From positions 1 to 64,000 of the forward strand of contig JAUWMR010000015.1 of the NCBI GenBank assembly GCA_030613055.1: a DNA stretch of 64,000 nucleotides. The letters run 5' to 3'. Of the stretch, positions 34,612 to 50,693 are shown in pieces. The position numbers were made by a program, and so were the translations under genes. The notes beneath the pieces are model-generated. The model had not been told where the DNA came from. It made no database searches and was given only the letters and a program-made list of their open reading frames with translations. Source of the DNA: Desulfobacteraceae bacterium. Lineage in GTDB: Bacteria > Desulfobacterota > DSM-4660 > Desulfatiglandales > Desulfatiglandaceae. Every line of letters starts with the position of its first letter. Within the stretch, counting starts at the first letter, position 1.

Positions 34612-34943
34612 GGTGTAATAGTTCACCTATTAAAAAATATTTAGACAGGATTACAGGATAAACAAGATTTTTTGTCCAGTACATCCTTTAACAAATCCTT
34701 TATTATCACAACATTAATCTTTTCCCCCGGACAGTCATGGCTATAGTTGACTAAACCTTGGCGTTTCAAACCTACGCCGGCCAAAACCGCTACGCACACA
34801 GTATAGCACGTCATGCCTGAGATAGAACTGTTCTCACCCGGGCCGGGATCACCATTAACAAACTTTATTTTAACAGGATAACTGTTATGATTTACAAAAT
34901 TAAAACATTCTCCCGCTGTAAGCGGGATTAATCCTGTCAATAA
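34612..34943. other. Spacer between LytS-like kinase and LytTR regulator genes
   Basis: No convincing gene. It includes a short degenerate repeat, TTAGACAGGATTACAGGAT (near 34641), that recurs near 60331 as TTAGACAGGATAACAGGAT. The spacer probably results from repeat insertion into a formerly compact operon. Confidence 0.5.
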
Positions 34944-35996
34944 TCATACGACTGAACTTGCCGGATAAGGAACCTCAATAATGGCTTTCAGGCCAGAAGG
35001 CCGGTTCTCTTCTAAGATCAATCTCCCTCTGTCGCCATATAATGATTTCAGCCGTTCCCTGATATTGGAAAGGCCGAGACCCGAACCACTACCTTTATAC
35101 AACCCAACACCGGTATCAGCGATCTCCAACCGCAGTATGCCCCCATTTTCCTCTCCGCGTATGGATACCTCCCCTCCTTCAATCTTTGGTTCAAGCCCGT
35201 GCTTTATCGCGTTTTCCACCAATGGCTGGAGCAGCATTGGAGGAAATGGAATATCCTTTATGCTTTCAGAGACCTCGATTTTGTAACACAACCTGTCTTC
35301 CATCCGGACCCTGAATATATTGAGATAGGCCCGTATCATCTCAAGCTCCTGTCCAACGGTAATTGTACCCTCCCTTGTCTTTTTAAGGGACGTTCTCAAA
35401 TAATGGATAAGGTCCATTAGCATATCCTGTCCCTTTTTATGATCCGTATCGAGCAGGCTCAATATGTTGGACAGGGTGTTGAACAGGAAGTGGGGCTCGA
35501 TCTGGGCCTGGAGGAGCTTCAGGTTACCTTCTACGGCCTTTTTTTCACTAATGAGCCTTTTTATCCTTTCTTCCTGAACAAGGACTTTGGTGGCGGAGAT
35601 GGTTTCCCGGGAGAAAAAGAAATAACTAATCATGGATCCAAACAGGATGCCAAGGATTATTATCTGGAACACACTGTATTTTTGGAAAAATATAGAGGGG
35701 CCTATTCCCGCAACTACCGTGCCCAATAGGGCTCCACTGGCTGATCCTATGATCATAGCGATAAATATGGCAGCCACCTGGATAAAGGGTTTAGCGGATT
35801 TAAAAAGGAAATGGACGATCATGACACATGAACAAATAGACATACCGATACATTGAGTAATGATGAAGGTGTCCACAAACCCGCCACCGAATCCCAGAAA
35901 AGTCAGGAATATGGCAATAACGGTGTTAAAAAATGCCGTGTAGAAAAAGGACTTGAGGACCCTCTTTCGATCTATCACTGTCGATCCAAATTCCAT
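34944..35996 (-). CDS. LytS/YpdA-like sensor histidine kinase
   Basis: 350 residues. Residues 15-128 hold about four membrane helices without a large external loop. A coiled region (EERIKRLISEKKAVEGNLK) leads to the His_kinase domain with H169 (LQAQIEPHFLFNTLSNI). The ATPase domain follows (MLLQPLVENAIKHGLEP, IADTGVGL, GSGLGLSNIRERL). This is the kinase type that pairs with LytTR regulators. It is expected to sense a membrane-associated or small diffusible signal. Confidence 0.9.
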   Translation of the reverse strand: MEFGSTVIDRKRVLKSFFYTAFFNTVIAIFLTFLGFGGGFVDTFIITQCIGMSICSCVMIVHFLFKSAKPFIQVAAIFIAMIIGSASGALLGTVVAGIGPSIFFQKYSVFQIIILGILFGSMISYFFFSRETISATKVLVQEERIKRLISEKKAVEGNLKLLQAQIEPHFLFNTLSNILSLLDTDHKKGQDMLMDLIHYLRTSLKKTREGTITVGQELEMIRAYLNIFRVRMEDRLCYKIEVSESIKDIPFPPMLLQPLVENAIKHGLEPKIEGGEVSIRGEENGGILRLEIADTGVGLYKGSGSGLGLSNIRERLKSLYGDRGRLILEENRPSGLKAIIEVPYPASSVV

Positions 35997-36100
35997 ATCA
36001 ATTCCTGCTCCAGAAGCACTAACAGGTAATGCACCCTCCGAGAATGCGTCTTCATGTCATTTCGACCGAAGGGAGAAATCTATAACTTACGTAATTTCAT

Positions 36101-36162
36101 TACAATGTCAACATATGCCCCTAACCTGAAGATTCCAAAACAAAAGTAACGGGTGATAAGCT
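36101..36162 (-). repeat. Fragment duplicated from the membrane-protein gene at 37720-38445
   Basis: About 60 bp (AATGTCAACATATGCCCCTA... onward) match 37825-37890 inside the DUF6064-like gene with few differences. The two copies flank the aldehyde dehydrogenase gene in direct orientation. The fragment lacks the rest of the gene and is a leftover of a duplication. Confidence 0.8.
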
Positions 36163-36220
36163 ACCTCAGAGATTTGATTTTGGTACCTGTTTATGACCGT
36201 ATTTCACAACTAACATATCA

Positions 36221-37606
36221 TTAGCTAATAAATTTCAGGACTTTCTTTAAGTATTTAAGAGGAGTTTTATATGGAGGATATTTCATTTGGGGATCTACAA
36301 AAAAGGATCTTTTTAACACACTTTTTCTATGTGAGAACGTATCAAAGCTTGCTTTTCCATGATAAGCTCCCATGCCACTGTCACCTACTCCTCCAAAAGG
36401 TAACTTATTATTCATAATATGTCCTAATGCATCATTTATGCATGCTCCTCCTGATGAAACTTCTTTTAATATCTTTTCCTGTTTGCTTTTATTCTTTGAG
36501 AAGAAATACAATGCTAAAGATTTTGGTTTTGTATGAAGAAGTGAAATAACTTTGTTTAGATCCTCATATTCTATTACAGGCAAGATAGGACCAAATATTT
36601 CTTCTCCCATTATTTTATTATTCCATGAAATATTATCGATGACTGTTGGAGCTATATAAAGGCTATCAGGCTTCGTAGTACCTCCTATAATAATGTCTCC
36701 TTCCTTTAATAACTCAGAAAGACGGAAATAATGTTTTTCATTGATAATTCTCGCATAATCCGGACTTTTGAACGGATCTTTTCCATAGAATTCTTCAATA
36801 ATCGTTTTTATACTTAGCAATAAATTACTCTTTATGTTCTTTTGAATTAAAAGATAATCAGGAGCTATACAAGTCTGCCCTGCATTAAGATATTTTGCCC
36901 AAATAATTCTTCTTGACGTTTTTTCTATATCAATATCTTCATCGATAATACAAGGATTCTTCCCTCCAAGCTCAAGAGTTACTGGTGTTAATTGTTTTGC
37001 TGCAGCTTCCATGATTATTTTTCCGACATTGGTTCCACCAGTGAAGAAAATATAATTAAATTTTTGAGAAAGAAGCATCTGAGTTTTTTCTATTCCACCT
37101 TCCACGACCGCAATGTATAATGGATCAAAATATTCTCTAATAATATTTGCGATAATCCGTGAAGTTTCAGGAGCAACCTCAGACGGTTTCACAACTGAAC
37201 AATTTCCAGCGACCATAGCTCCTACCAAAGGAGACATAGCAAGTTGAAAAGGATAATTCCATGGACCAATAATTAATACACTCCCATAGGGTTCCGGATA
37301 AATATAACTGGAACCAGGAAAGAGCATAAAAGGAGTGCGTACTTTCTTTGGCTTAGCCCATGATTTGATTTTTTTTAACGCATAATCAATCTCATGAAGT
37401 GCGATTGCAATCTCAGTAGTGTATGCTTCTATTGCTGGTTTGCCTAAATCAAGTTCTAAAGCCTCAAGGATTTTGTCTTCATTTTCTTCAATGGCTTTTT
37501 TCAAGATGTTAAGTTGCTTAACACGAAAAGTAATTTCTTTAGGAGTCCCTGCAAAAAAGAAATCATGCTGTTTATTTACAATATTTAATAATTGTTTTTG
37601 ATTCAT
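36221..37606 (-). CDS. Aldehyde dehydrogenase (ALDH3-like)
   Basis: 461 residues. NAD(P)-binding and catalytic motifs are complete: IGPWNYPFQLAMSPLVGA, FTGGTNVGK, E212 in TLELGGKNP, catalytic C246 in NAGQTCIAPDY, and EEIFGPILPV. ALDH3-type enzymes oxidise medium to long-chain or aromatic aldehydes. The C-terminus has a basic, slightly hydrophobic tail (LKYLKKVLKFIS) that may touch the membrane. The gene is clearly more AT-rich than its neighbours, and direct repeats derived from the next gene flank it, so it is probably acquired. Confidence 0.92.
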   Translation of the reverse strand: MNQKQLLNIVNKQHDFFFAGTPKEITFRVKQLNILKKAIEENEDKILEALELDLGKPAIEAYTTEIAIALHEIDYALKKIKSWAKPKKVRTPFMLFPGSSYIYPEPYGSVLIIGPWNYPFQLAMSPLVGAMVAGNCSVVKPSEVAPETSRIIANIIREYFDPLYIAVVEGGIEKTQMLLSQKFNYIFFTGGTNVGKIIMEAAAKQLTPVTLELGGKNPCIIDEDIDIEKTSRRIIWAKYLNAGQTCIAPDYLLIQKNIKSNLLLSIKTIIEEFYGKDPFKSPDYARIINEKHYFRLSELLKEGDIIIGGTTKPDSLYIAPTVIDNISWNNKIMGEEIFGPILPVIEYEDLNKVISLLHTKPKSLALYFFSKNKSKQEKILKEVSSGGACINDALGHIMNNKLPFGGVGDSGMGAYHGKASFDTFSHRKSVLKRSFFVDPQMKYPPYKTPLKYLKKVLKFIS

Positions 37607-37719
37607 ATTATTGCCTCTATTTTAAAATTGTTTACGTATTTTCGATGTCAAAAATCAATTTCGCATAACTCCGCCCCTGCGCGGGGACTGTGAACGGTCA
37701 ACCGGTTATGATCTAGTCC

Positions 37720-38445
37720 TTATTGTTTAACGGAAAGCGCCGTTTTATTTTTATCCATGATAGTCTCTTTTAAGTCCAGGTAAGACCCCAATCTCAATAT
37801 CATGAATAATGCGCAGACAACTAATACAATGTCAACATATGCCCCTAACCTGAAAATGCCAAAAAAACCAAAGTAAAGGGTGATTAAAGCAACTGTTGCC
37901 TCTAATATTACTGACCTCGGTTTTGCTGTCAGGCATAAAAAACCGCAAATAGTAGCCATTGTGGGGCAGTTAATGGAGCCCAAGGGCGAATAGAACAGTG
38001 CGTTTAGCCAGACAGGACTCTCAACCCAGTGTAAGTACCAGAAACCAAATACGAGCCCTGATATGCCAAAAACCAGATTGACCGGCTTCTGGTTATTAAG
38101 CTCAAAATTCAATTGCTTTTTTAGATACGCGTTCAATATTAACACAAAAAACATCCCAAATATAATGACATTGGGAAGTATCATGTATATTATTGAAATT
38201 ATGGTAGCAGAAAGAGATAAAAAAGCAATAAACAAAGAAAACAGAACACCTCTGGTCTTTTTGAAAATCAGTCCCGTCACTATGACCAACAAAAATAGTA
38301 TATGGGTAATGACAGAAAATGTTTTTACCTGGGCAGTAACATTTGACAGCATACTGGTAATCTCTTCCGGTGACTTCATCATGGTCATAACAAAAATCAC
38401 TGCAAGCAGTAATCCCAGGACACCCCACTTAACTTTATTCTTCAT
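37720..38445 (-). CDS. DUF6064-like integral membrane protein
   Basis: 241 residues with about seven hydrophobic helices. WVESPVWLNALFYSPLGSINCPTM and ALITLYFGFFGIFRLGAYVDIVLVVCALFMIL resemble the DUF6064 pattern. I start at ATG 38445, with GGAGG 9 bases ahead. The longer reading to 38460 consumes the ribosome site. Function unknown. It is the last gene of the minus-strand envelope run, with a 133-bp gap from the barrel gene. A 60-bp piece of this gene is duplicated at 36101-36162. Confidence 0.7.
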   Translation of the reverse strand: MKNKVKWGVLGLLLAVIFVMTMMKSPEEITSMLSNVTAQVKTFSVITHILFLLVIVTGLIFKKTRGVLFSLFIAFLSLSATIISIIYMILPNVIIFGMFFVLILNAYLKKQLNFELNNQKPVNLVFGISGLVFGFWYLHWVESPVWLNALFYSPLGSINCPTMATICGFLCLTAKPRSVILEATVALITLYFGFFGIFRLGAYVDIVLVVCALFMILRLGSYLDLKETIMDKNKTALSVKQ

Positions 38446-38593
38446 AGTTGTTACCTCCATCTATCAACTCCAGTCTTCCATAATTTTCTCAAAGGCCGAC
38501 TCCCCACCTCTAAGAGACCTAGTATGCCCACCGCCAGGGCTAATAGCCACAAAGAAAAGCAGCATTAAAGTAGAAGTTCCCGGACAGACACAA

Positions 38594-39958
38594 CTAAAAT
38601 GTATACTCTAACCCGATCATCCATTGATAGTTCAGAATACTCCCGAACTCTGTATCTCCAGCGCCGGAATTTATGGTTCCTATGGAGAAAAGCTGGGTAT
38701 GCTCCCCTACAAAATACTCCACAGTTGACATGAATTGCCCGGAACCATCGTCTATGTTCTGGGTCCATCGGAAAGTAAGGTTGAGTACATCCCGAATATC
38801 ATTGTGGTTGTATTGAAACATAACATAATTCCGCCTCAGAAATCTCAGACCCGGATCTGCCGTCTGGCTAAGAGTCAATTTTGACAAATCCCCGATCAGA
38901 CCTGTGAGATCAAAGGCATCTGAGGCATTCTTTCTTAGAGAGTAGTAATCCTTAGCCTCACCGTCACTATATCCGGGACTGTTATAAACATATTCCATTG
39001 TCAGTGTAGGACCTATTTCGAGGGTGTAGGATCCCCCAACAAGGACGATCCATTCCAACGACGAGGCTTCATCATTGATATCCTCCATAGAGGCGCCAAA
39101 AGGATTATTGGCCTTTTCAGGATAGAGGGCATCTGTGCCCTTGGCAATGGTCCCTTCCCCATACAATAACAGGGCATCTGTGGCCGTCCAACCTCCAAAG
39201 ACCCCGAGCCTGTTCCTGTCATGCTCCTTGCGGGATAGGATCAGCCCTGCATATGCTTCCTGCCCTGCATAATCGAGCTTCAGGGCATACGTCTTTTCAA
39301 ATTCAATAAACTGAAACTCTTGGCGTCCTTTGTCCAGATTAGCAATAACAGAGAGCGTCCACGACATTGCCGGAAGCCACACAAGACGCGCAAAATCCAT
39401 TCCCGGCACTTCCCTTTTAGGGTTACTCCGGCCATTATCGCGGAAGAAAGGATTGGAAGGTGAAAAGAGATAGGAAGGCCCCCATTGCAGGTTTTCCCTG
39501 CCATAGGAAATAAACAGGCTTTCGGTCACTCTAATCCTGGCCAGCCATTCATTGATAAAACACTCGTCATCCCAATCTGTGTCCCCTTCTCGGTCTCCCT
39601 CCTCCCATTGCATCCATTCGAGGCGAAACCTGGGTTTAACTCTTAGATCCAATATGTTGTAATTCAGGTAGAAATCCGGGCGCAATTCTACATCAGCCAG
39701 ATACCGTGGGATCTGAAAAAAATCGTTATCGGGATTCTGGGAAGAGTTCGTCGGATCCTGGCAGGTGCCAGAGGCAAGGATTCTTACACTGTATTCAAAC
39801 CCACCTGACAATTCCTCCCATAACTTGGAGGATTGGCTTTTTTCTCCCTCTGGCTGTACACCCTGAACTTTGCCTTGGTCCTTAACCGCGGCAAATGACG
39901 GTTTCCATAGGAGGCATAGAAGAATAAACAGGATAACAAAGAAAAAGTTGTTTTTCAT
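38594..39958 (-). CDS. Outer-membrane beta-barrel protein (DUF1302-like)
   Basis: 454 residues. A signal peptide (about 1-23, ending PSFAA) is followed by many alternating amphipathic strands rich in Tyr and Trp. The chain ends GLEYTF with the terminal Phe recognised by the BAM machinery. ISYGRENLQWGPSYLFSPSNPFF resembles the central region of DUF1302-type barrels that accompany lipid or lipoprotein export genes. It is predicted to sit in the outer membrane and may receive cargo moved by the ABC/LolA-like components upstream in the same operon. Confidence 0.8.
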   Translation of the reverse strand: MKNNFFFVILFILLCLLWKPSFAAVKDQGKVQGVQPEGEKSQSSKLWEELSGGFEYSVRILASGTCQDPTNSSQNPDNDFFQIPRYLADVELRPDFYLNYNILDLRVKPRFRLEWMQWEEGDREGDTDWDDECFINEWLARIRVTESLFISYGRENLQWGPSYLFSPSNPFFRDNGRSNPKREVPGMDFARLVWLPAMSWTLSVIANLDKGRQEFQFIEFEKTYALKLDYAGQEAYAGLILSRKEHDRNRLGVFGGWTATDALLLYGEGTIAKGTDALYPEKANNPFGASMEDINDEASSLEWIVLVGGSYTLEIGPTLTMEYVYNSPGYSDGEAKDYYSLRKNASDAFDLTGLIGDLSKLTLSQTADPGLRFLRRNYVMFQYNHNDIRDVLNLTFRWTQNIDDGSGQFMSTVEYFVGEHTQLFSIGTINSGAGDTEFGSILNYQWMIGLEYTF

Positions 39959-40060
39959 TGCTGATCAAATTCTATTGTTAGTGTTAAAAAACTGCTTCGC
40001 AATTTTATATAGCGCGGCTTCGCCGCTTTAGAAAAAAGGAATTTCTGCAATGGATGGGCA

Positions 40061-40588
40061 CTATAAAATAAATGGGATATACCTCATGGTTGTTCTTTTA
40101 TAGTTTGTGTAACCATCACGGAATTTTACAAAGTTCTCTCTTTCTTCTACCAAAGATGCGGTGATCAGGAAAAGTATGCAAATAGAACAAAGTACTATTG
40201 TAAGTAACGTAACTCTCTTGAGCAGGATACCAAGGACAAGTAAGATCAGGCTCGAATAGAGAGGGTGACGGATATAACGGAAAATGCCACGGTCAATTAG
40301 AACCGTTGTGTTTTCCCATTCATCGTCGGGTTTTCCATATTTTTTTAAGTTATAAAAGCCGCTTATTGCAATGAACGCTGATACCATCAAAAAAATCCAT
40401 GAAATAATCTGATACAACGATACGACATGAATCGCCGAAAAACACATATTGACAAATACTAGGGCCAAAAGAGATTCAAGCGCGAAAAACACATAAAAGC
40501 CGTGTGTGGTAACTGATCGCAATTCTGGTCTAAATTTGATGAAAATCAGCAAAGCGATAATTACAAAAATAACTATCTTAGCAGTCAT
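40061..40588 (-). CDS. Isoprenylcysteine carboxyl methyltransferase-like membrane protein
   Basis: 175 residues with four to five membrane helices. The hallmark is near the C-terminus: GIFRYIRHPLYSSLILLVLG, then EERENFVKFRDGYTNYK, as in ICMT/PEMT-type methyltransferases. These use S-adenosylmethionine at the membrane face. In bacteria the acceptors are mostly unknown and may be lipids or thiols. I start at ATG 40588, preceded by GGGGTGG. The GTG at 40597 would overlap that site. It lies between the LolA-like and barrel genes on the same strand. Confidence 0.82.
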   Translation of the reverse strand: MTAKIVIFVIIALLIFIKFRPELRSVTTHGFYVFFALESLLALVFVNMCFSAIHVVSLYQIISWIFLMVSAFIAISGFYNLKKYGKPDDEWENTTVLIDRGIFRYIRHPLYSSLILLVLGILLKRVTLLTIVLCSICILFLITASLVEERENFVKFRDGYTNYKRTTMRYIPFIL

Positions 40589-40676
40589 GACATCCACCCC
40601 GTTTCTGATTTATATCTACGTGTCTTGCCACAAGGGCACCGAGACACAAAATTTTATAACAGTACTGAATTCCGAA

Positions 40677-41504
40677 TTATCTCACCAACAGATTTAGGTT
40701 AAAGGTTGAATCCGGGATCCTTTTGATTTTGACTTTGCTATAGGTCATGGTCGTTATATCCTCTTTTATCACTGCATTTGTAATGACCATTTTAGAGACA
40801 AAAGCCCTGGACCTGTCCTGGACCATGATACTGTTATCATATTCAAAAGTTGCTGATTTGAACATCTTGCCCGAGACCGTAAAGAAATCCGCCTTGACGC
40901 CCACAAGTTGCTTCTTTGAAATCCAGTACTTGATCCGGTCATAGGTGGCCTTTTTATTTGTTGCAGTAAGGTCATAAAGGTAGCAGGATTCTTCGTTTAC
41001 ACTCTCTTCTGATGCGTTGGTTACTTTATAATCCCCGGCATAGTTGGTTGATGCGATATCCCCGTTGGAGGCCCCACCAATCAGCTTCTGCCTGGGAGAA
41101 ATTGGTACTGGTTTCCTCAGGCCTGGTTTTACGAACCACATGTTCCGGTCAATCATCAGCAGCTTGCGTCCCTTCACCTTTGGGGGAGAAATGAATTCTG
41201 CCAGGGAATTGAAGTCGCGGGCCTTTATTATTAGGGTTCTGACCTGTTTACGGCCCCTCTCAATGGATTCGATCGTGATCGTCCATTCCACGCCTTCCAC
41301 ATTTCCCCTGGCCTCATCTGCCTTTTCCAGGATCTCTTTGGGTGTCATCTCTGCAAGCGCCGATTTTGCATTAAACATCATTCCAGACAATAAGATCACA
41401 AGCAGAACTATGAACTTGATTGTATAGAAATTTCCTTTTCTTTGAGTCCGCCATAGGCGGAGTTTATATGGAATCGCGAAGAGATTGTATAACTTGAAAC
41501 ACAT
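40677..41504 (-). CDS. Outer-membrane lipoprotein-sorting protein (LolA-like fold)
   Basis: 275 residues. A long N-terminus (about 28 residues) precedes a hydrophobic export segment (IKFIVLLVILLSGMMF, cleavage near KSALAE). The mature part begins MTPKEILEKADEARG and has WTITIESIERGRKQVRTLIIK, GRKLLMIDRNMWFVKPGLRKPVPISPRQKL and ISKKQLVGVKADFF, typical of DUF4292/PF17131 LolA-like proteins. They shuttle lipid or lipoprotein across the periplasm. A strong AAGGAGG is present at the ATG. The ABC permease stop is 74 bp upstream. Confidence 0.88.
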   Translation of the reverse strand: MCFKLYNLFAIPYKLRLWRTQRKGNFYTIKFIVLLVILLSGMMFNAKSALAEMTPKEILEKADEARGNVEGVEWTITIESIERGRKQVRTLIIKARDFNSLAEFISPPKVKGRKLLMIDRNMWFVKPGLRKPVPISPRQKLIGGASNGDIASTNYAGDYKVTNASEESVNEESCYLYDLTATNKKATYDRIKYWISKKQLVGVKADFFTVSGKMFKSATFEYDNSIMVQDRSRAFVSKMVITNAVIKEDITTMTYSKVKIKRIPDSTFNLNLLVR

Positions 41505-41577
41505 AAATATCCTCCTTTGATTGTCGATTTTATGAATAAGTTCTAATTGTCAATCCTCAATCGTCAATTGTCAATTC

Positions 41578-42816
41578 TTAGACATGCCCCAACGCATCCA
41601 CTACATTCTGTTTGGCCGCGCGTCTGGCAGGCAGGATGGCGGCTATCAGTGAAAGAAAAATCAAAAAAACCATCAAGGTAAACATGGCCTGAGGCAGCAG
41701 ATTGACGGTCAAAGACACCGGTGTCGAGACTCCCGGCGGGATATAGGTCGGTTCAATCGTGCGAATGATCGCCCAAATGGCTATATTCAACACAATGCCA
41801 AGAATGGTTCCCAGGAAGCCGAGCATCGCGCCCTCAATTGCGAATAGAAGGCTTACACCCCTTCGTTTCAGGCCCAGTGCCCTGAGGGTACCGATCTCCC
41901 TGGTTCTCTCAAGGACAGCCATTCCCATGGTATTGATGACGCTCATAACCACAATGATAAACACAATGGAGAATATAAACATGAATATCATGTCAAACAT
42001 TCCTTTGACCTTTGAATAGAAAAGGGAAAGTTCATTCCAGGTCTTTATTTCGCACTTAAATCCTGCCCCCGACAGGGTGCTGAGTAACCGGTTGCGAGCC
42101 CTCTCCGTCTTTTCCCAATCGTCCAGCAACACCACCAGCCGGTCTGCCTTCTCCGTATCGTACAGAGATTGAGCAAACTTGAAAGGAACGCGCATGTATT
42201 TGTCATTGGTAGCGTCACTGCCTGTGTCATAGACACCCGCCACTTCGATATCCAATGCGTTCATCTGGCCATCAAGTGTGGTGGCCATAACTACCCCATC
42301 ACCGCCCGGTTTCAGATCGAGGTGGATAGCCAGATCCTCTGCCATTTCCACCCCATAGGTCTTTTTATCGCTAAGCACATTACCCCTTACCGGCCGGAAG
42401 GCAGCCCAGGCCCCTTTTATGGTCTTGTCATCCCGTGGGATCACGCCATTAGCCAGGAATATTGCGGAGGTGCGTCCATTGGAGACCAGTCCTGAAATAT
42501 GTATTTGGGGAGTGGCCAGAATGACGTCCTCGTCCTCCTCCACAAGGTCAGCTATTTTCCGGAGTTCTTCTTGAGAAAACATGTACTTTTCGGGATCGAT
42601 CTTTCCCTTCTCCACCCATCCCTCTTTATAGATAGTAAGATGGCCGAGACCTTCTCCCCTTATAGCCGACTCCCTGAGTCCCTGGTATGTGTTATGTATA
42701 TATCCCCGAAATAGGCTCACTGCCGCAAAGCCCATGGCTATTGCCAGGAGGGTCACAAAGGACCGGCGTTTGTTTTTTAGAATATTGCGAAGCGCAATCC
42801 TCATCCATTTGATCAT
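41578..42816 (-). CDS. ABC transporter permease, FtsX/LolC/MacB family
   Basis: 412 residues. Helix 1 at about 20-40, a large periplasmic domain (about 45-270), then three helices at the C-terminus (MIFMFIFSIVFIIVVMSVINTMGMAVLERTREIGTLRALGLKRR, GAMLGFLGTILGIVLN, PQAMFTLMVFLIFLSLIAAILPARRAA). This is the four-helix FtsX arrangement of mechanotransmission ABC systems, which extract lipoproteins or lipids from the inner membrane rather than pump through a channel. Its start overlaps the ATPase stop by 4 bp (ATGA). Confidence 0.9.
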   Translation of the reverse strand: MIKWMRIALRNILKNKRRSFVTLLAIAMGFAAVSLFRGYIHNTYQGLRESAIRGEGLGHLTIYKEGWVEKGKIDPEKYMFSQEELRKIADLVEEDEDVILATPQIHISGLVSNGRTSAIFLANGVIPRDDKTIKGAWAAFRPVRGNVLSDKKTYGVEMAEDLAIHLDLKPGGDGVVMATTLDGQMNALDIEVAGVYDTGSDATNDKYMRVPFKFAQSLYDTEKADRLVVLLDDWEKTERARNRLLSTLSGAGFKCEIKTWNELSLFYSKVKGMFDMIFMFIFSIVFIIVVMSVINTMGMAVLERTREIGTLRALGLKRRGVSLLFAIEGAMLGFLGTILGIVLNIAIWAIIRTIEPTYIPPGVSTPVSLTVNLLPQAMFTLMVFLIFLSLIAAILPARRAAKQNVVDALGHV

Positions 42817-43499
42817 TTTTTATCACCTCCATCCAGGATCATTCCGTCCTCAAGCCGGACAAGGCGCTCCACCCTATCCAGAACCCTCTGATCATGGGTT
42901 GAAAAGATAAAGGTGGTTTTTTCCTTTTCATTGAGGCTCCGCATAAGTCCAATGATACTGCGGGACGTGTCGGAGTCCAGATTGGCAGTTGGTTCATCCG
43001 CAATCACTAAAGATGGGTTTGTAACCAGTGCCCTTGCAATGGCAACCCTCTGCTGTTGGCCGCCGGACATCTTGTCCGGCCGGTTCCTTACAAAATCAGA
43101 TAGGCCGACTTCATCGAGACGACTGAGTGCCCTGTCTCTGGCCTCAGGAAATGATGTGCCTTTTATCTGTAGAGGCAGCATGACATTTTCAACAGCAGAA
43201 AGAACCGGTATCAAATTAAACCCTTGAAAGATAAAACCGATGGATCCATTTCTGAGTTCAGTTCGTCTATTATCAGATAATAGGGCAACTTCCTGATCCT
43301 CAATAAGTAGTTGCCCTGACGAGGGTTCGTCAATGGCGCCAATAAGGTTTAGCAAGGTTGTTTTACCTGAACCGGAAGGCCCCCAAATGGCCACAAATTC
43401 TCCTCTATCAATGGTCAGATTAACACCTCTCAAGGCGTGCACCACTGTTTCTCCAAGCAGATAATCCTTTTTGATGTCTTTTGTTTCAATTAGGGCCAT
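42813..43499 (-). CDS. ABC transporter ATP-binding protein, LolD/MacB type
   Basis: 228 residues. Walker A GPSGSGKTTLLN, Q-loop IFQGFNLIP, signature DKMSGGQQQRVAIARAL and Walker B PSLVIADEPTANLD are all intact. It is the nucleotide-binding partner of the FtsX-like permease encoded directly downstream. AGGAGG precedes the ATG. With the LolA-like and barrel proteins it could form a trans-envelope export route. It lies 12 bp after the TPR gene. Confidence 0.93.
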   Translation of the reverse strand: MALIETKDIKKDYLLGETVVHALRGVNLTIDRGEFVAIWGPSGSGKTTLLNLIGAIDEPSSGQLLIEDQEVALLSDNRRTELRNGSIGFIFQGFNLIPVLSAVENVMLPLQIKGTSFPEARDRALSRLDEVGLSDFVRNRPDKMSGGQQQRVAIARALVTNPSLVIADEPTANLDSDTSRSIIGLMRSLNEKEKTTFIFSTHDQRVLDRVERLVRLEDGMILDGGDKK

Positions 43500-43511
43500 G
43501 GTTTTTACCTC

Positions 43512-44162
43512 CTAATGAGTTTCAGCCAGGTTTTTGAATTTTTCCGCCTTGGCCTGATCTCCGGCCTTACTGTGCAGCTCGGCAAGGTTATGATAGACCT
43601 CTTTTTTTATTGATGCATAAGATTCCGGTTTTTTCTCGATTATATCAACTAAGTGTTCGAAGTCTTCAACCGCAATATCTCTCCGGTTAAACATGGAAGG
43701 TAAGCGTATTGAATTCATGGCCCTTGTCATTCTTACGGATACATTATCAGGGTCCAGTTCAACAGCCTTATCCATTAATGCTATGCCCTTATCTACATAA
43801 GACGTTTTTTTAAAAGGATTCCATGTGGTCTTTGCCATCATGGTAGTGGCACTACCTAAATAACACATTGTTTCCTTGTCATTCTTGTTTATTTCATGCG
43901 CCTTGGACAAGAACTCGACCGCCTTTGGTGCAAACTTTTTGGCATCTTCTCTTGCCTTTGTATGGCAGGCGATACCTAAGCTCTTGATTGTATTATAGTC
44001 CGAAGGGTTTTGTATCTTTTCGGATAATTGACTGCTGTCTAAACCACGCAGTTCGTGCCAGTCCCCTGCCCATACGCCAGGGGCAAACAAAAATGCCGTG
44101 AATACAATAATCCCTGCTGTTATTAAACGAGACATGTGAAATCTGTCTTTAATCTTAGTCAT
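43512..44162 (-). CDS. Secreted TPR-repeat protein
   Basis: 216 residues. A signal peptide (LITAGIIVFTAFLFAPGVWA) is followed by helical TPR-like repeats, for example AVEFLSKAHEINKNDKETMCYLGSA, IALMDKAVELDPDNVSVRMTRAMNS and VYHNLAELHSKAGDQAKAEKFKNLAE. It is probably periplasmic, a scaffold for the export system whose ATPase gene follows 12 bp later. AGGAGG is placed ahead of the ATG. No catalytic motif. Confidence 0.85.
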   Translation of the reverse strand: MTKIKDRFHMSRLITAGIIVFTAFLFAPGVWAGDWHELRGLDSSQLSEKIQNPSDYNTIKSLGIACHTKAREDAKKFAPKAVEFLSKAHEINKNDKETMCYLGSATTMMAKTTWNPFKKTSYVDKGIALMDKAVELDPDNVSVRMTRAMNSIRLPSMFNRRDIAVEDFEHLVDIIEKKPESYASIKKEVYHNLAELHSKAGDQAKAEKFKNLAETH

Positions 44163-44259
44163 CTTTATCCTCCATATCTTTCTTTGTTATTGTAATCCCG
44201 TAAACCCTTGCCTGCCCGCCTTTTACCCTCCTCAGGTAGGCTGGAGGGTTAATATACTG

Positions 44260-46056
44260 CTAACTCGAAAAGATCTCCTGCATCTTGAGCATCAGGCCCA
44301 GGTCGCCTTCAACAGTGTACTTTCCCTGCATTAATGCGTCCTGGCCGGATATCTCTCCCTTACCAATTGACAGCCATACATCCCACGGGGTGTGAATAGT
44401 GATGTCAGGATTTGCTGCCTCACCCTCATTAAAGGTGCACTGTTGATCCTTTATCTCTAAGTAGCATTTGCCTGCCTGATCACCAGTAATGTCGAACTGA
44501 AATAATCCTTCGAAATCACCAGCCTTGGACGGATTGTATATGGATGCCATTCCGCCAAAAAACATCCCCATATCAGCCTGCAGGTATTCCTCAAGCTGGG
44601 GAAGCTCCTTACCGGCCTTTTTTTCCTCTTCATATCTGATCCATGTATTCCAGAACCGGTTGCCCATCTGGCGAAAGCCATGAACAGTCGGCATAAGCGG
44701 CTGCTGCACGGCCTGTTCCGTATCTCTGTTTACATAACCCTGGGTTATTACCTGTCTTCCTGCATCAAAAAGGGCATCCATAATCCTCTGATAGCTCCCG
44801 CCAATGCTTTCGCCAAAACGCATGGACTCGGAAGAAGGCCGGAGTATTTCTCCGATGATGGGGGTTTGTCCTGAGCGACTCATCAACCGGAACATCTTGA
44901 TCAGGCCGTCGAAATGATCCACTTCCGGAAATCCGCACACTGAAAATATGAGCATCCGGCGAGAGTTAGTTCCTTTTCCCCGGTGGGGATGCCGGGTCGA
45001 TCCGTCGCTGTTCTCGATAAGAAACGGTTTTAGTAGAGGAATTCGTCGGTCTAAAAAATTCTTGGTGATCCCCGGCACAGAGAACACGTAGAGGGGTTGC
45101 GCATAGACAATCAGATCCGCACCTTCCAGTTTTTCATTTAGCACCGTCATATCATCCTTCTGGATACACACACCGGGCGTCTTGGTCCAGCAGGTATAAC
45201 ATCCGGTGCATGGCCGGATCTTATATTTGTTGAGAAAATGGATTTCAGGTGTTATTCCCTCGGCCCGGATACCGTCTAAAAACCGGTCGAGAGACTTAAA
45301 AGTAAACCCTTTTTTGTTTCTCGGGCTGCCGAATACCACATGCACATTCTTTACCGGACCCAGATCATGGGCTACCTTTTTTCGCTCATCGTCTTTTGAG
45401 CCGCTGGTGGCCTGCACGGATTTTTCCGGGGCTTTAACAGGGGCCTCAATGGACGTTGAAGTTGGCTTTCCGGCTGCCATAATTCCCCCCATGCCTTTGG
45501 CCTCAAGATACCTGTCAGGGAACTTCCTGGTAAACGGTATGCCAACGGACGTGACCAGGATTATAGGAATAATAATCTGGGTGATAACCCCCGGGATCAG
45601 GGTGATAAGCATGGCCACAAGGAACAACCCTGCCCACACCAGGGTCATGATCCTGTTGATGGTGGTGAATAGATCTGTTTTCCAGAACATTTCTGGTGTT
45701 GTTCGTTTGGCAAAGGCTATTGTAAAGGGCTCCGCGCCAAATACCACCGGTAAATAGGCCATGAGAAAAAGTGAAAGATACAGGAACGTGGAAAAATACT
45801 TTAAAAGATAGAGCTGGTTGAAAGATGGAACCGAAGCGGAAAACAGGAGGCCCGCTATCCAGAACAGGGCCACTCCGTAATCAAGCTTGGTGACGCGATC
45901 TGAACCCATGGCAACCATGGTATATCCGACCGCATATAGAGCGGCAAGAAGTGCCGCCCAAAACATACTCAGATCAAGGCCGAGCATAAATCCCCAGTAG
46001 ATTCCAATACTCGGCCATGCTCCCGCCCCAAAAAATATTTTAGCTGCATGTTTCAT
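44260..46056 (-). CDS. Membrane-anchored flavodoxin-like oxidoreductase fused to an SCP2 domain
   Basis: 598 residues in three parts. Residues 1-200 have about six membrane helices. Residues about 235-430 form an NAD(P)H-dependent FMN reductase/iron-sulfur flavoprotein-like domain (HVVFGSPRNKKGFTFKSL, CTGCYTCWTKTPGVCIQKDD, GADLIVYAQPLYVFSVPG). The C-terminal 100 residues (FEGLFQFDITGDQAGKCYLEIKD to DALMQGKYTVEGD) form an SCP2 lipid-binding fold. An electron carrier joined to a sterol/lipid carrier at the membrane suggests redox chemistry on a lipid. It is the first gene of the envelope operon with a strong AAGGAGG. I do not know a characterised protein with this layout. Confidence 0.83.
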   Translation of the reverse strand: MKHAAKIFFGAGAWPSIGIYWGFMLGLDLSMFWAALLAALYAVGYTMVAMGSDRVTKLDYGVALFWIAGLLFSASVPSFNQLYLLKYFSTFLYLSLFLMAYLPVVFGAEPFTIAFAKRTTPEMFWKTDLFTTINRIMTLVWAGLFLVAMLITLIPGVITQIIIPIILVTSVGIPFTRKFPDRYLEAKGMGGIMAAGKPTSTSIEAPVKAPEKSVQATSGSKDDERKKVAHDLGPVKNVHVVFGSPRNKKGFTFKSLDRFLDGIRAEGITPEIHFLNKYKIRPCTGCYTCWTKTPGVCIQKDDMTVLNEKLEGADLIVYAQPLYVFSVPGITKNFLDRRIPLLKPFLIENSDGSTRHPHRGKGTNSRRMLIFSVCGFPEVDHFDGLIKMFRLMSRSGQTPIIGEILRPSSESMRFGESIGGSYQRIMDALFDAGRQVITQGYVNRDTEQAVQQPLMPTVHGFRQMGNRFWNTWIRYEEEKKAGKELPQLEEYLQADMGMFFGGMASIYNPSKAGDFEGLFQFDITGDQAGKCYLEIKDQQCTFNEGEAANPDITIHTPWDVWLSIGKGEISGQDALMQGKYTVEGDLGLMLKMQEIFSS

Positions 46057-46261
46057 AATGTCTTTATCCTCCTTGTTTTTTTTCGAGAATAAACAATAGA
46101 AAAACTTACCGCAATCGGGATGCGATGAAATGGAGAACGAAGGGAATGAACGACCTATTTCAGGAGTGAGCAGTGAATGTAGGGTCGGGCTTTACGCCCG
46201 CCCGGATATGCAATCTTCTATATTGTTTTCTTCCCTCCAGAGAGGTATGGTCAGTGTGGCA

Positions 46262-47110
46262 ATGAGTACAATTAATAAAATGGATAAGGATCTCGCAAAA
46301 GAAAAACTGGAAGACTTGGTTCGTCAGCTCAACAAGCTGGATTCCCTGCTTGTGGCATTCTCAGGGGGAGTGGACAGCACTTTCCTACTGGCCGTGGCCC
46401 ATCAAACCTTAGGGGAAAAAATGATGGCGGCCACAGCAAAATCCGCCATACATCCGACCCGGGAAACCGAAAATGCCTGCGACTTCACTCGGGAAAAGGG
46501 AATCCAGCATATTGTATTTCCCTCAGATGAAATGAGTCTGCCGGTTTTTGTGTCTAACGGTGCGGATCGCTGTTACTACTGCAAACGACACCTGTTTGAC
46601 TGCATTATTAAAATCGCGAAGGAAAATGGAATCAAAAATGTGGCCCACGGCGCCAACGTGGACGATCTGAATGATTACCGTCCTGGATTCAGGGCAGCCA
46701 GGGAAGCTGGCGTGATCGCGCCGTTGATCGATGTGAGCTTGAATAAGGAAGAAATCCGTTTTTTATCAAAAGAAATGGGTCTTCCAACATGGAACAAACC
46801 GGCCATGCCCTGTCTTGCAACAAGGATTCCTTACGGGAGTCCTATTACAGATAAAAAGCTGAAGATGATTGAAAAAGCAGAATCCTTCCTTTTAGAACAG
46901 GGCTTTACAGAAATCAGGGTCCGGCATCACGGGTCAGTAGCAAGGATAGAGGTAGCAAACTCTGAGCTAAAGTTTATCCTGAATAAAGGAAGCAGAGATG
47001 CCATTGTGGAAAAATTTCATGAGATCGGATTTGAGTATATTGCCCTGGATATGGAGGGTTATGTATCAGGAAATATGAACCGAAGCCTGAAGGTCAAGTT
47101 AACCGAATAA
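46262..47110 (+). CDS. larE: LarE-type ATP-dependent sacrificial sulfur transferase
   Basis: 282 residues from ATG 46262. The PP-loop is LLVAFSGGVDSTFL (SGGVDS at 34-39). The family motifs DRCYYCKRHLF (C104, C107), NVAHGANVDDLNDYRPG and KPAMPCLATRIPYGSPI (C184) are present. C184 matches the position of the cysteine that LarE sacrifices to make the nickel-pincer cofactor of lactate racemase. No larA, larB or larC is near. The next gene is YcaO-like. In-frame starts further upstream (46130, 46247) exist and the ribosome site is unclear, so the exact start is uncertain. Confidence 0.87.
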   Translation: MSTINKMDKDLAKEKLEDLVRQLNKLDSLLVAFSGGVDSTFLLAVAHQTLGEKMMAATAKSAIHPTRETENACDFTREKGIQHIVFPSDEMSLPVFVSNGADRCYYCKRHLFDCIIKIAKENGIKNVAHGANVDDLNDYRPGFRAAREAGVIAPLIDVSLNKEEIRFLSKEMGLPTWNKPAMPCLATRIPYGSPITDKKLKMIEKAESFLLEQGFTEIRVRHHGSVARIEVANSELKFILNKGSRDAIVEKFHEIGFEYIALDMEGYVSGNMNRSLKVKLTE

Positions 47111-47190
47111 AATCTGCTTCAGTCTGCTCAATAAGCTGGGGTATATCCCTTGCGAAGCCACTCCCCGCCTTCGCGGGAACAAGTTTTATA

Positions 47191-47259
47191 GATTCCCGCC
47201 TTCGCGGGAATGACAGGCGCTTAAGTTAATTCGTCATTCCCGCGTAGGCGGGAATCCAG
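47191..47259. repeat. Facing GGATTCCCGC/GCGGGAATGAC inverted repeat
   Basis: GATTCCCGCCTTCGCGGGAA then TGAC faces GTCATTCCCGCGTAGGCGGG then AATC across 18 bp. The same unit is found at 54826-54918 and, in variant form, inside 23566-23711. Each half is itself a hairpin. It lies between larE and the YcaO gene. Confidence 0.8.
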
Positions 47260-47344
47260 GAGTCGTTACCCTTATTTATTGAGGGTGTTTCAGTCAGCGG
47301 CTATCTGCGGCTAATTTTTTTTAAAAGCTGAAAGGCAAAATATT

Positions 47345-49084
47345 ATGTGTCATAAGGAACTATTAAAAGATGCCTTCAAGGGCTACACCCTGGATCTGGA
47401 TAAGGTCATCCCCCCTGAAGAGACGGTTCAGCGGTTCAGGCAAAGGCTAAAGACGATTGACCTGGATATCCTGGAAAGTACTGTCAGAATTGATAATGGC
47501 CGTCTGAATATTCCTGTCTATTTCAGCATATGCGGCAGGGACGCTGAAGTGGTGACCGGAGCAAAAAAGCAGATGGGAAAAGGGGGCACGCCCTACCAGG
47601 CCGAAGCCAGCGCTGTTATGGAACTGGCAGAAAGATTCAGCCTGTTTTCTTTTATAAGGGAACCAAAAAACTTTCTTGTTGAAGAATATGAAAACATCAA
47701 GGATCAGGCCCTACCATTTGAAATTATTGCCCAATCCGTGCATGATGAATCCCGTGAGCTTGATACGGTTTATAAGGTTTTTTCAAAGCTCCCCCTGAAG
47801 TGGACCCGTGGCTACAATTTGACAAAAGGCAGGGAAGTATTAATACCGTTTGACTGGTTTTTTGCCATCAACCAGTTCAATGGTTCCTCGGCAGGTAACT
47901 GTACTGAAGAAGCAATCCTCCAGGGAATATGCGAGGTGATGGAAAGGCATGTCTCATCGACCATCAGCCGGAACAAATTAGAAGTGCCCCAAATTGATCT
48001 CGCGTCAGTAACAGACCCGCTTGCCCTGGAGTTGTTACGAAAGTACGGGCGTGAAGGGATCAAACTGTATACTTCTGATTTTACGCTGGATACCGGAATT
48101 CCCACGGCCGCGGTTCTGGCCTACGATCCATCCACTTTTCCTGAAAAAAGCGAGATCGTCTGGACTGCCGGGACAACTCCCAATCCCCAAAAATCCGTGA
48201 TACGCGCGCTGACAGAGGTGGCCCAATTAGCCGGCGATTTTAATACCGGCTCCTGCTATGAGCCAAGCGGTCTTCCCAAGTTTAAGGACCTGGCTGAGGC
48301 CGATTTTGTTACGCATTCTGATAAAAATATAAATATATCCGGTTTGCCGGATCTTTCAAACGACAACATCAGGGTAGAAGTGGAAAACTGCGTTACAGCC
48401 CTTTCAAAATCAGGCATGGAAGTAATCGTGGTCGATGTGACTCATAAAAAGCTTAAAATTCCAGCCTTTTACACCATCGTGCCAGGAGCGCACTTCAGGG
48501 AACGGGCCGCCGGCACCAGTGTGGGCATGTTCTCAGCCAAGCTGATTGCGGAAAGCGGAAATCCTGAATGGGCCATTGCCCAGTTATTGAATATGGACAA
48601 ACTCCTGCCCGGCAAATACTACGCCAAATTCTTTCTTGGATCGTCTTATATTTCCGCAAATGAACCATTAAAGGCCTTGGAGTATCTGAAGGAGGCCCTG
48701 AAACTGGAACCAAAAAATCAGGATATTCCCAGTATCTATTCATACATGGGGGTTTCACTTAAAGAGCTTGAACGATACAGGGAGGCCATTGAAGTCCTTG
48801 AAAAGGGAGAAGAATATGACAGCGAGAGAACAGACATCCACAACTTAATGGGATTCTGCTATTTCAAACTCAAAGAGCACGAAAAGGCCATAAAATGCTT
48901 TCGAAAGGTCCTTCATCTAAATCCCTCATCGGCAATTGACTATGCCAATATCGCTTCAAATTACAGGGACATGGGCGACAGTAAAAAGGCCGTTAAATAC
49001 TACCGTCGCGCCCTTGAGCTGGACCCAACCATTGATTTTGCCAGGGAAAATTTGCAAAGGCTGGAACAGACCGGTATGAAATGA
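47345..49084 (+). CDS. YcaO-domain protein with C-terminal TPR repeats
   Basis: 579 residues. The YcaO core (about 60-420) shows both ATP-binding glutamate motifs, AEASAVMELAERFS (86-99) and CTEEAILQGICEVMERH (186-202), plus TAGTTPNPQKSVIRALTEVAQ and VVDVTHKKLKIPAFYTIVPGAH. YcaO enzymes use ATP to activate a peptide backbone amide, giving azolines, amidines or thioamides. Residues about 425-579 form TPR repeats (AGEPLKALEYLKEALKLEP-like, EKAIKCFRKVLHLNPSS, KKAVKYYRRALELDP) that probably bind the protein substrate. No TfuA, dehydrogenase or precursor peptide was seen. The sulfur-handling LarE gene lies 234 bp upstream on the same strand. Confidence 0.88.
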   Translation: MCHKELLKDAFKGYTLDLDKVIPPEETVQRFRQRLKTIDLDILESTVRIDNGRLNIPVYFSICGRDAEVVTGAKKQMGKGGTPYQAEASAVMELAERFSLFSFIREPKNFLVEEYENIKDQALPFEIIAQSVHDESRELDTVYKVFSKLPLKWTRGYNLTKGREVLIPFDWFFAINQFNGSSAGNCTEEAILQGICEVMERHVSSTISRNKLEVPQIDLASVTDPLALELLRKYGREGIKLYTSDFTLDTGIPTAAVLAYDPSTFPEKSEIVWTAGTTPNPQKSVIRALTEVAQLAGDFNTGSCYEPSGLPKFKDLAEADFVTHSDKNINISGLPDLSNDNIRVEVENCVTALSKSGMEVIVVDVTHKKLKIPAFYTIVPGAHFRERAAGTSVGMFSAKLIAESGNPEWAIAQLLNMDKLLPGKYYAKFFLGSSYISANEPLKALEYLKEALKLEPKNQDIPSIYSYMGVSLKELERYREAIEVLEKGEEYDSERTDIHNLMGFCYFKLKEHEKAIKCFRKVLHLNPSSAIDYANIASNYRDMGDSKKAVKYYRRALELDPTIDFARENLQRLEQTGMK

Positions 49085-49585
49085 AGGGACTGCACAGCTC
49101 AGCATTAACAATAAAAAAACAATTTTGCTCACTAACTTGACAAATATTTCATTTAGTTCTAATGTTTTTTGGATTGTGAAATCCCTCACACACTGCCTTT
49201 AGTTCTACAATATTGACAGTCTCGAAAAAAGTCGTTTTACCGGTCATTGCAAGGAGTCACGCCAAGGCGTGACGACGAAACTATCTCCCCTGATTTCGAG
49301 CAGTTACATTCCATGAGATTGCTTCGCTACGCCCCACTTGCCGTCCAAACTGTATGAGGAATTTCTTATAATTCCATCGATATTTATGAACCCGTAAAAA
49401 GTCGGATTTCGCGAATATGTCATTTCGATCCCGCCGGCGGCGGGAGAGAAATCTTTTGTTTTCAATGGGTTACCCGTTTAAGATTTCTCGCTTCGCTCCA
49501 AATGACAGGTTTTTGATACTTTTTACGGAACTGTCGATATTAAATCGTATCTTAATCTCATATAGAATTTGGGAGGTCACTTCAC
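49085..49585. other. Repeat-rich intergenic region before the inositol phosphate synthase gene
   Basis: It contains a CATTGCAAGGAGTCACGCCA-type hairpin near 49245-49275 and the repeat at 49392-49528. No short ORF with a ribosome site that could be a YcaO substrate was seen. GGGAGGT precedes the next gene. Confidence 0.5.
49392..49528. repeat. 137-bp inverted-repeat element
   Basis: The ends are CCGTAAAAAGT (49392-49402) and ACTTTTTACGG (49518-49528), perfect 11-bp inverted repeats. Inside, TGTCATTTCGATCCCGCC...AGAGAAATCTT faces AAGATTTCTCGC...AAATGACA. A related partial copy (TGTCATTTCGACCGAAGGGA) is at about 36056-36075. It looks like a small non-autonomous element. Confidence 0.7.
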
Positions 49586-50683
49586 ATGGATAGGATCAAA
49601 ATTGCTATTGCTGGTATTGGTAACTGTACGAGTTCATTAATACAAGGGATTGAGTATTACCGCGGCAGGGAAAACACGGAACATATAGGGCTCATGCACT
49701 ATGACTTAGGCGGTTATCTGCCTCACGATATCGAAGTTGTCGCGGCCTTTGATATTGATAAGAGAAAAGTGGGCAAAGATATTTCCGAGGCCATTTTTCA
49801 GCTCCCCAATTGTACAAAAGCGATCTGCACTGATGTGCCGAAAAAAGGCGTCGTCGTGAAGATGGGGCGGATATTAGACAGCTTTGCGGACCATATGAAA
49901 AACTATGACATGAAATACACGTTCCTTTTATCGGACGAAAAGGAGCCCGGCAAAGAAGAAATCGTCAGGATTCTCAAAGAATCGGGAGCTGACATGCTCC
50001 TCAACTATCTCCCCGTTGGTTCCGAAAATGCCGTTAAGTTTTACGCTGACTGCGCCTTAAATGCGGGCATCGGCTTTATCAACAACATGCCGGTTTTCAT
50101 TGCCAGTGAACCTTCCTGGGCAGCCCGCTTTGAGGAGAAAAACCTGCCGCTAATAGGTGATGATATCAAGTCCCAGTTAGGCGCCACCATTGTACACAGG
50201 GTGCTGACCAATCTTTTCAGGAACAGGGGCGTAAAATTAGAACGAACCTACCAATTAAACACAGGGGGCAACACGGACTTCCTGAACATGCTTGATCAGA
50301 GCCGTCTAATCTCAAAGAAAAAGTCCAAAACCGAATCGGTCCAATCCCAGTTAGGTGAAGACCGCCTGGATGATGAAAACATTCACATTGGGCCAAGTGA
50401 CTGGGTGGCATGGCAGAAAGATAACAAAGTTTGCTTTGTCCGCATGGAGGGTAAACTATTCGGCGACGTGCCCATGAATCTGGAGCTGCGCCTTTCTGTG
50501 GAGGATTCGCCCAACTCTGCCGGTGTCGGCATTGACGCCATCCGGTGTGTAAAACTGGCGTTGAACCGTGGCCAGGGAGGAGTGCTTCAGGCGCCATCAG
50601 CCTATTTCTGCAAACACCCCGCCCACCAGTTCACAGACGATGAGGCATTTCGCATGATCGAAGATTTTATCAACGAAGGGTGA
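49586..50683 (+). CDS. Inositol-3-phosphate synthase (myo-inositol-1-phosphate synthase)
   Basis: 365 residues, the short prokaryotic length. The NAD-binding N-terminus is IKIAIAGIGNCTSSLIQGIEYY. Family motifs include NYLPVGSENAVKFYADCALNAGIGFINNMPVFIAS, LIGDDIKSQLGATIVHRVL, QLNTGGNTDFLNML, and a lysine-rich SRLISKKKSKTESV segment. It converts glucose 6-phosphate to inositol phosphate. GGGAGGT precedes the ATG. The next gene, 10 bp away, uses inositol phosphate, so the two form one pathway unit. Confidence 0.95.
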   Translation: MDRIKIAIAGIGNCTSSLIQGIEYYRGRENTEHIGLMHYDLGGYLPHDIEVVAAFDIDKRKVGKDISEAIFQLPNCTKAICTDVPKKGVVVKMGRILDSFADHMKNYDMKYTFLLSDEKEPGKEEIVRILKESGADMLLNYLPVGSENAVKFYADCALNAGIGFINNMPVFIASEPSWAARFEEKNLPLIGDDIKSQLGATIVHRVLTNLFRNRGVKLERTYQLNTGGNTDFLNMLDQSRLISKKKSKTESVQSQLGEDRLDDENIHIGPSDWVAWQKDNKVCFVRMEGKLFGDVPMNLELRLSVEDSPNSAGVGIDAIRCVKLALNRGQGGVLQAPSAYFCKHPAHQFTDDEAFRMIEDFINEG

Positions 50684-50693
50684 AACGCTGATC

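Follow-up and report, generated by a model that had tools for sequence, protein, structure and literature searches.

Seven co-directional genes on the minus strand of a 64,000-nucleotide stretch of Desulfobacteraceae DNA (the whole stretch is hereafter called the window) encode a putative ATP-binding cassette (ABC) transporter, a periplasmic carrier, and an outer-membrane barrel beside a methyltransferase and a membrane-bound fusion protein (positions 38594–46056). Do these genes form one system? The first-pass annotation had read them as a single operon, headed by the fusion protein, in which redox and methyl transfer would modify a lipid for export to the outer membrane. Open reading frame (ORF) calling confirmed the 7 ORFs, and domain assignments with Pfam and NCBIfam profiles, together with an AlphaFold2 model of the barrel, agreed with the annotated LolD/FtsX-like ABC pair, LolA-like carrier, barrel, ICMT-like methyltransferase, and tetratricopeptide repeat (TPR) domain, the last by a weak match. 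The pattern of conservation across relatives, in contrast, speaks against one lipid-modifying operon. The locus is probably best explained by 2 units: (i) a trans-envelope lipid exporter, composed of the TPR protein, the LolD-like ATPase, an FtsX-like permease, the LolA-like carrier, and the barrel, and controlled by a LytS/LytTR pair; and (ii) the fusion protein, an independent membrane-bound iron–sulfur flavoprotein with a lipid-binding SCP2 tail, which would lie beside the exporter by chance.

Composition and distribution of the transporter module

The conserved block consists of the LolD-like ABC ATPase (42813–43499), the FtsX/LolCE/MacB-type permease (41578–42816; FtsX and MacB_PCD matches, 4 hydrophobic segments), the LolA_like (PF17131) periplasmic carrier (40677–41504; E 5.6e-37), and the outer-membrane barrel with an OprD/Occ/AlgE-like fold (38594–39958); these and the other genes given below between 33844 and 46056 lie on the minus strand. 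The block was found at 11 loci of named metagenome-assembled genomes (MAGs), mostly of Desulfobacterota/“Deltaproteobacteria” and including 2 beta-proteobacteria. Among these loci, L126, L128, and L131 correspond, contig for contig, to the G063, G071, and G053 loci, and the contigs of L127 and L129 stop before or inside the barrel gene. The ATPase gene adjoins the permease gene at all 11 loci. Within the phylum, 25 of 395 genomes have the permease family, and in 16 of 20 further neighborhoods the block is complete, or complete but for a recognizable barrel.

The periplasmic TPR-type protein (43512–44162), a frequent member of the module, has an N-terminal hydrophobic segment with a Sec-type signal, and its gene lies 5′ of LolD in the window, L126, L128, L131, L133, and L103. 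A different gene occupies the position directly 5′ of LolD at L175 (9076–10713) and L179 (3986–5641), where a FAD amine-oxidase-family protein with a Tat-like N-terminus (SRRSFL) is encoded. The small membrane methyltransferase of the PEMT/NnrU/DUF1295/ICMT superfamily (40061–40597) is intact nearly only in the window: its gene is interrupted in L126, a distant methyltransferase occupies the same place in L131, and none was found in the remaining module loci that were read. The methyltransferase is thus facultative and outside the conserved core. The loci are mostly MAG contigs, and frameshifts or losses seen in a single MAG (the L126 methyltransferase, and G019 below) could partly be assembly effects.

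Separation from the canonical Lol system

The module permease scored 106 bits on the LolCE model TIGR02212 (cut-off 362), and the ATPase scored 233.7 bits on the LolD model TIGR02211 (cut-off 307.75). Permease trees resolved 3 separate groups: the module permeases; the canonical LolCE of these genomes together with Escherichia coli LolC/E; and the permeases of a second LolD-FtsX-LolA-barrel family. The module formed its own group (support 100/99) apart from the LolCE group (99/98), and a second tree gave the same split. The scores below the cut-offs and the separate branch rule out an identity with canonical LolCD, and the module stands apart from the canonical LolCE system, as the first-pass annotation had supposed for the ABC pair. 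Canonical LolCE and LolA are also encoded in the same genome. The second family is represented there as well, by a LolD-FtsX-131aa-LolA-barrel cluster on contig C85 (L104, 3924–8346), whose permease group is found in many family members.

Barrel, carrier, and two-component regulators

The barrel sequence had no Pfam or NCBIfam match, and a profile search against PDB sequences was also empty. An AlphaFold2 model built from 16 sequences reached a predicted local distance difference test score (pLDDT) of 85; with 4 sequences, the model was unusable (pLDDT 27). The former matched OprD/Occ and AlgE-type porins (Foldseek E 7e-12) and aligned with 4frt over 302 residues (VIA Z 24.7, RMSD 2.9, 9% identity). 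The protein also has an N-terminal signal segment and a terminal Phe. Its assignment as a porin-type outer-membrane barrel, judged by the predicted fold, is well supported; no Omp85 chain was among the listed structural matches, a comparison that leaves the Omp85 family possible. The nearest solved relative of the carrier is the LolA-superfamily protein NE2245 (3buu, E 1.7e-32).

A LytS-type histidine kinase and a LytTR response regulator are encoded directly 3′ of the barrel gene in L128, L131, L132, L133, L136, and L175–L178. The LytTR gene follows the kinase homolog wherever the contig extends, and the L130 kinase lies at the contig end. The window counterparts are a kinase with PF06580 and HATPase_c matches (34944–35996) and a regulator (33844–34626), which lie outside the 7 genes and had been missed when the operon was first delimited. 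By this recurring gene order, the pair belongs to the module, which would be separately regulated. Promoter and terminator scans of the locus gave matches not clearly above those of shuffled sequences.

Biosynthetic neighbors of divergent module copies

Five divergent copies of the module (G427, G293, G458, G422, and L129) lie in or beside genes of the ketosynthase (KS), polyketide synthase (PKS), and phosphopantetheinyl transferase (PPTase) families or of fatty-acid synthase (FAS) type, and these copies are spread over 3 parts of the permease tree. The most extensive arrangement is that of G427, in which one strand carries, in order, DUF2141, LolD, FtsX, LolA, barrel, sulfotransferase, AMP ligase, FabG-type short-chain dehydrogenase/reductase (SDR), acyl carrier protein (ACP), GCV_T-like protein, FeeM-like protein, KS, acyltransferase (AT), KS-type proteins, thioesterase, KS, chorismate lyase, FabA, TPR homolog, APS kinase, and, further on, a kinase and a regulator. 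The TPR homolog (E 1.3e-9) and the kinase and regulator (386 and 387 bits) match those of the module. Chorismate lyase yields 4-hydroxybenzoate. The synthesis of aryl polyenes (APEs) starts from the same compound (PMC8253772). For this reason, the G427 cluster is read as an APE-like pathway that holds the whole module. Neither in this cluster nor in the window block was there a protein of the length of a resistance–nodulation–division (RND) exporter.

The other 4 copies have varied partners. A gene for a 2823-residue PKS lies 36 bp after the barrel gene in G293; genes for a PKS ketoreductase-ACP protein and a PPTase abut LolD in G458; KS, thioesterase, PPTase, and 3-hydroxyacyl dehydrogenase genes are present in G422; and 2 KS genes with hydrolase, SDR, and radical SAM genes accompany L129, the permease of which is 77% identical to that of the window. 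These neighbors suggest that the substrate is most likely a polyketide or fatty-acyl lipid of the aryl-polyene kind. For the organism of the window itself, this substrate class would be an extrapolation from relatives.

Proposed export route and alternatives

From this gene content, we infer the following route. Powered by cytoplasmic ATP, the type VII ABC transporter would extrude a lipid out of the inner membrane’s outer leaflet and into the LolA-like carrier; the carrier would cross the periplasm and hand the lipid over at the OprD/AlgE-like barrel or through it; the TPR protein may act as an assembly or docking factor; and the LytS/LytTR pair would set the expression of the module. Lipid export to the outer membrane, one element of the first-pass annotation, is thereby retained as probable for the ABC/LolA/barrel core. 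The carrier-based view draws on the APE clusters (ApeL/ApeM/ApeN), in which delivery to the outer membrane relies on a LolA-like carrier (PMC8253772, PMC8041823). In a narrower form, which we put forward tentatively, the module would be a dedicated ABC-driven (LolD/FtsX) outer-membrane exporter of aryl-polyene-like or polyketide lipids under LytS/LytTR control. As a counterpart to the RND-based ApeM route, it would be widespread across Desulfobacterota-type lineages and also present in some beta-proteobacteria.

Several observations weigh against these proposals. The TPR gene is missing from many module copies, and 2 extra genes, for a membrane protein and an aldehyde dehydrogenase, part the barrel from the kinase and regulator in the window. 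Biosynthetic neighbors are missing from most module copies: profile matches to KS, PPTase, or SDR occurred at 5 of 27 module loci (353 kb) and at 0 of 26 control loci (374 kb), a linkage that is modest per locus (p about 0.03, one-sided) and was measured against a non-random set of the loci at hand. In the window, neither a PKS/FAS or APE biosynthesis gene nor any other obvious source of a substrate is close to the module. The genome of the window has only 2 full KS genes, a fabF-like one on contig C12 and one on contig C48, neither of them linked to the module. The substrate may also differ between module copies. The C48 KS is accompanied by ACP and aminotransferase genes, and the row (G000:C48:36000–52000; L214, 6673–10634) comprises an aminotransferase-class (AONS/SPT-like) enzyme, KS, ACP, and an NAD-dependent epimerase. 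This row is possibly a sphingolipid-type pathway and, as such, a candidate lipid source, unlinked to the module.

Of the alternatives, a second dedicated lipoprotein-sorting system survives best, in which a Lol-like machinery under two-component control would sort some of the lipoproteins to the outer membrane or the cell surface; lipoprotein sorting is one option put forward for the Borrelia BBJ23–29 cluster described below (PMC13078400). The permease, ATPase, and carrier are all of the Lol superfamily, as is the nearest solved relative of the carrier, which speaks for sorting. We nevertheless consider it unlikely, given that canonical LolCE and LolA are encoded in the same genome, that the LolCE and LolD scores fall far below the cut-offs, and that PKS/FAS-type genes are linked to divergent copies.

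An efflux or detoxification pump of the MacB/YtrF kind, in which the two-component system would sense an envelope-active compound and the barrel would be the exit pore, is improbable. The permease does resemble YtrF and MacB in addition to LolE, and regulation by LytS/LytTR would suit such a role. However, MacAB-TolC has a fused nucleotide-binding and transmembrane domain and a MacA adaptor; the window has separate ATPase and permease genes, the conserved block holds no MacA-like adaptor ORF or TolC, and a LolA-like carrier is encoded in every complete copy of the module.

The membrane–flavoprotein–SCP2 fusion

Trans-envelope lipid export by the module would not involve the fusion protein (44260–46056), a neighbor of the module and not a member of it. 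The first-pass annotation had described it as a three-part protein with 6 membrane helices. The FMN_red (PF03358, E 8.4e-15)/Flavodoxin_2 and SCP2 domains were found as described, and the membrane part comprises at least 5 hydrophobic segments N-terminal to the flavodoxin domain. The reported CxGCxxC motif is present, though incomplete as given: it is the start of a longer CX2CX2CX7C motif, CTGCYTCWTKTPGVC (residues 283–297; 45166–45210), which is conserved in 18 of the 19 sequences checked (the window protein and 17 homologs). The compact spacing CX2CX2CX5–7C has been reported for iron–sulfur flavoproteins (ISFs; PMC3164229). The fusion, an ISF by sequence, resembles the ISFs of anaerobes in its FMN_red fold and in the four-cysteine motif in its middle, and differs from them in carrying membrane helices and an SCP2 domain as additional parts.

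Of the other loci that have the transporter block intact, none holds the fusion. There is no trace of its 3′ end 5′ of the TPR gene in L126 and L128, where the contigs end just upstream, and genome-wide searches of G063, G071, G083, and G053 gave flavodoxin or SCP2 matches only as separate proteins. The nearest homolog (85%) is in G019, where the fusion gene is followed by a TPR gene that codon 122 interrupts as an in-frame stop and then, in this order, by the 37720-type gene and those for the aldehyde dehydrogenase, the kinase, and the regulator. G019 has lost LolD, FtsX, LolA, and barrel, the deletion is flanked on both sides by continuous aligned sequence, and the fusion is intact (dN/dS 0.23). 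This deletion amounts to a natural experiment that parts the transporter from the fusion. Genomes without the module (G072, G070, G080, G081, G061, and G029) encode related proteins of transmembrane (TM)-ISF-SCP2 or TM-SCP2-ISF-SCP2 architecture, 4 of them with a PadR regulator gene upstream (L147, L149, L151, and L036, where PadR precedes a TM-(SCP2)-ISF-SCP2 protein). These proteins constitute an apparently undescribed family of membrane ISFs with lipid-binding domains. Because the fusion is absent from other intact blocks, kept in G019, and found as homologs beside PadR in module-free genomes, it is probably independent of the module.

The same evidence mostly refutes a modification-plus-export operon, in which the fusion would reduce and the methyltransferase methylate a lipid before the ABC/LolA/barrel part exports it: the genes are adjacent on the same strand in the window, and the fusion lies beside a TPR remnant in G019 too, but neither the fusion nor the methyltransferase is conserved with the core, the latter being interrupted in L126, a near relative, and missing from most other loci, leaving this reading highly improbable. 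Lack of conservation of the neighbors, which the first-pass annotation had named as a refutation, thus holds for these 2 proteins and fails for the ABC/LolA/barrel core.

Neighboring genes of the locus

The 2 genes between the barrel and the kinase encode a membrane protein without an assigned family (37720–38460; no Pfam match) and an aldehyde dehydrogenase (36221–37606). The former type of gene is also present in G019, and a remnant lies 3′ of the barrel in L126. The aldehyde dehydrogenase, which is not conserved with the module, was not found between barrel and kinase in L128 and L131–L133. On the 3′ side of the aldehyde dehydrogenase gene, positions 35997–36220 hold a short partial copy of the 3′ end of the 37720–38460 gene (FRLGAYVDIV), and G019 has a similar duplicate.

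Synonymous distances (dS) across positions 33844–46056 are mosaic: relative to G019, the aldehyde dehydrogenase has a dS of 0.08 and the 37720-type gene 0.80, and relative to G063, LolD, FtsX, and barrel have a dS of about 0.2 and the TPR gene 1.4. This mosaic suggests recombination within the locus. Divergent from the fusion, the plus strand (46130–52016) encodes a PP-loop protein, a YcaO-TPR fusion, a myo-inositol-1-phosphate synthase, and a 440-residue protein with a C-terminal CDP-alcohol phosphatidyltransferase domain. Another ORF of the same length as the fusion (598 residues, 21694–23490) is LepA-like, and the equal length is a coincidence.

Relation to known systems

The first-pass annotation knew of no described system of this make-up. 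Text searches of the literature for this exact cluster matched only one paper, on Borrelia (PMC13078400), which in 2026 described BBJ23–29, 7 genes including TPR, TPR, ATPase, permease, LolA-like protein, and outer-membrane barrel. A cluster of near-identical make-up has therefore already been described, and the window module is a variant of this kind of cluster. Compared by make-up, both cluster a periplasmic TPR protein, a LolD-like ATPase, a single FtsX/LolE-like permease, a LolA-like carrier, and a barrel, and the barrel comes last in one of the 2 gene-order groups of Borrelia, as in the window. They differ in that (i) BBJ23–29 has 2 TPR proteins; (ii) the Borrelia barrel is an Omp85-superfamily domain according to its authors’ modeling, whereas the window barrel model matches the OprD/AlgE type; and (iii) neither a LytS/LytTR pair nor PKS linkage is reported for BBJ23–29.

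The module shares with LolCDE-LolA the type VII ABC superfamily and a LolA-superfamily carrier, and differs from it, beyond the profile scores and tree position, in its single permease gene and its barrel and TPR partners. YbbAP-TesA (PMC12646458) has a hydrolase partner and neither carrier nor barrel. The APE exporter is alike in that a LolA-like periplasmic carrier serves the outer-membrane delivery of a polyketide lipid, and the G427 copy lies in an APE-like cluster; it is RND-energized with a LolB-like lipoprotein, whereas the window module has the LolD/FtsX ABC pair and a barrel. Published work describes the machinery of APE transport as dedicated, with low similarity to characterized systems (PMC8253772).

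It is an open question how large hydrophobic lipids other than lipopolysaccharide and lipoproteins are delivered to the outer membrane. The module would combine APE-like carrier logic with an ABC motor, a barrel, and a sensor pair, and since a complete APE-like pathway lies with it on the same strand in one genome, this proposal is directly testable.

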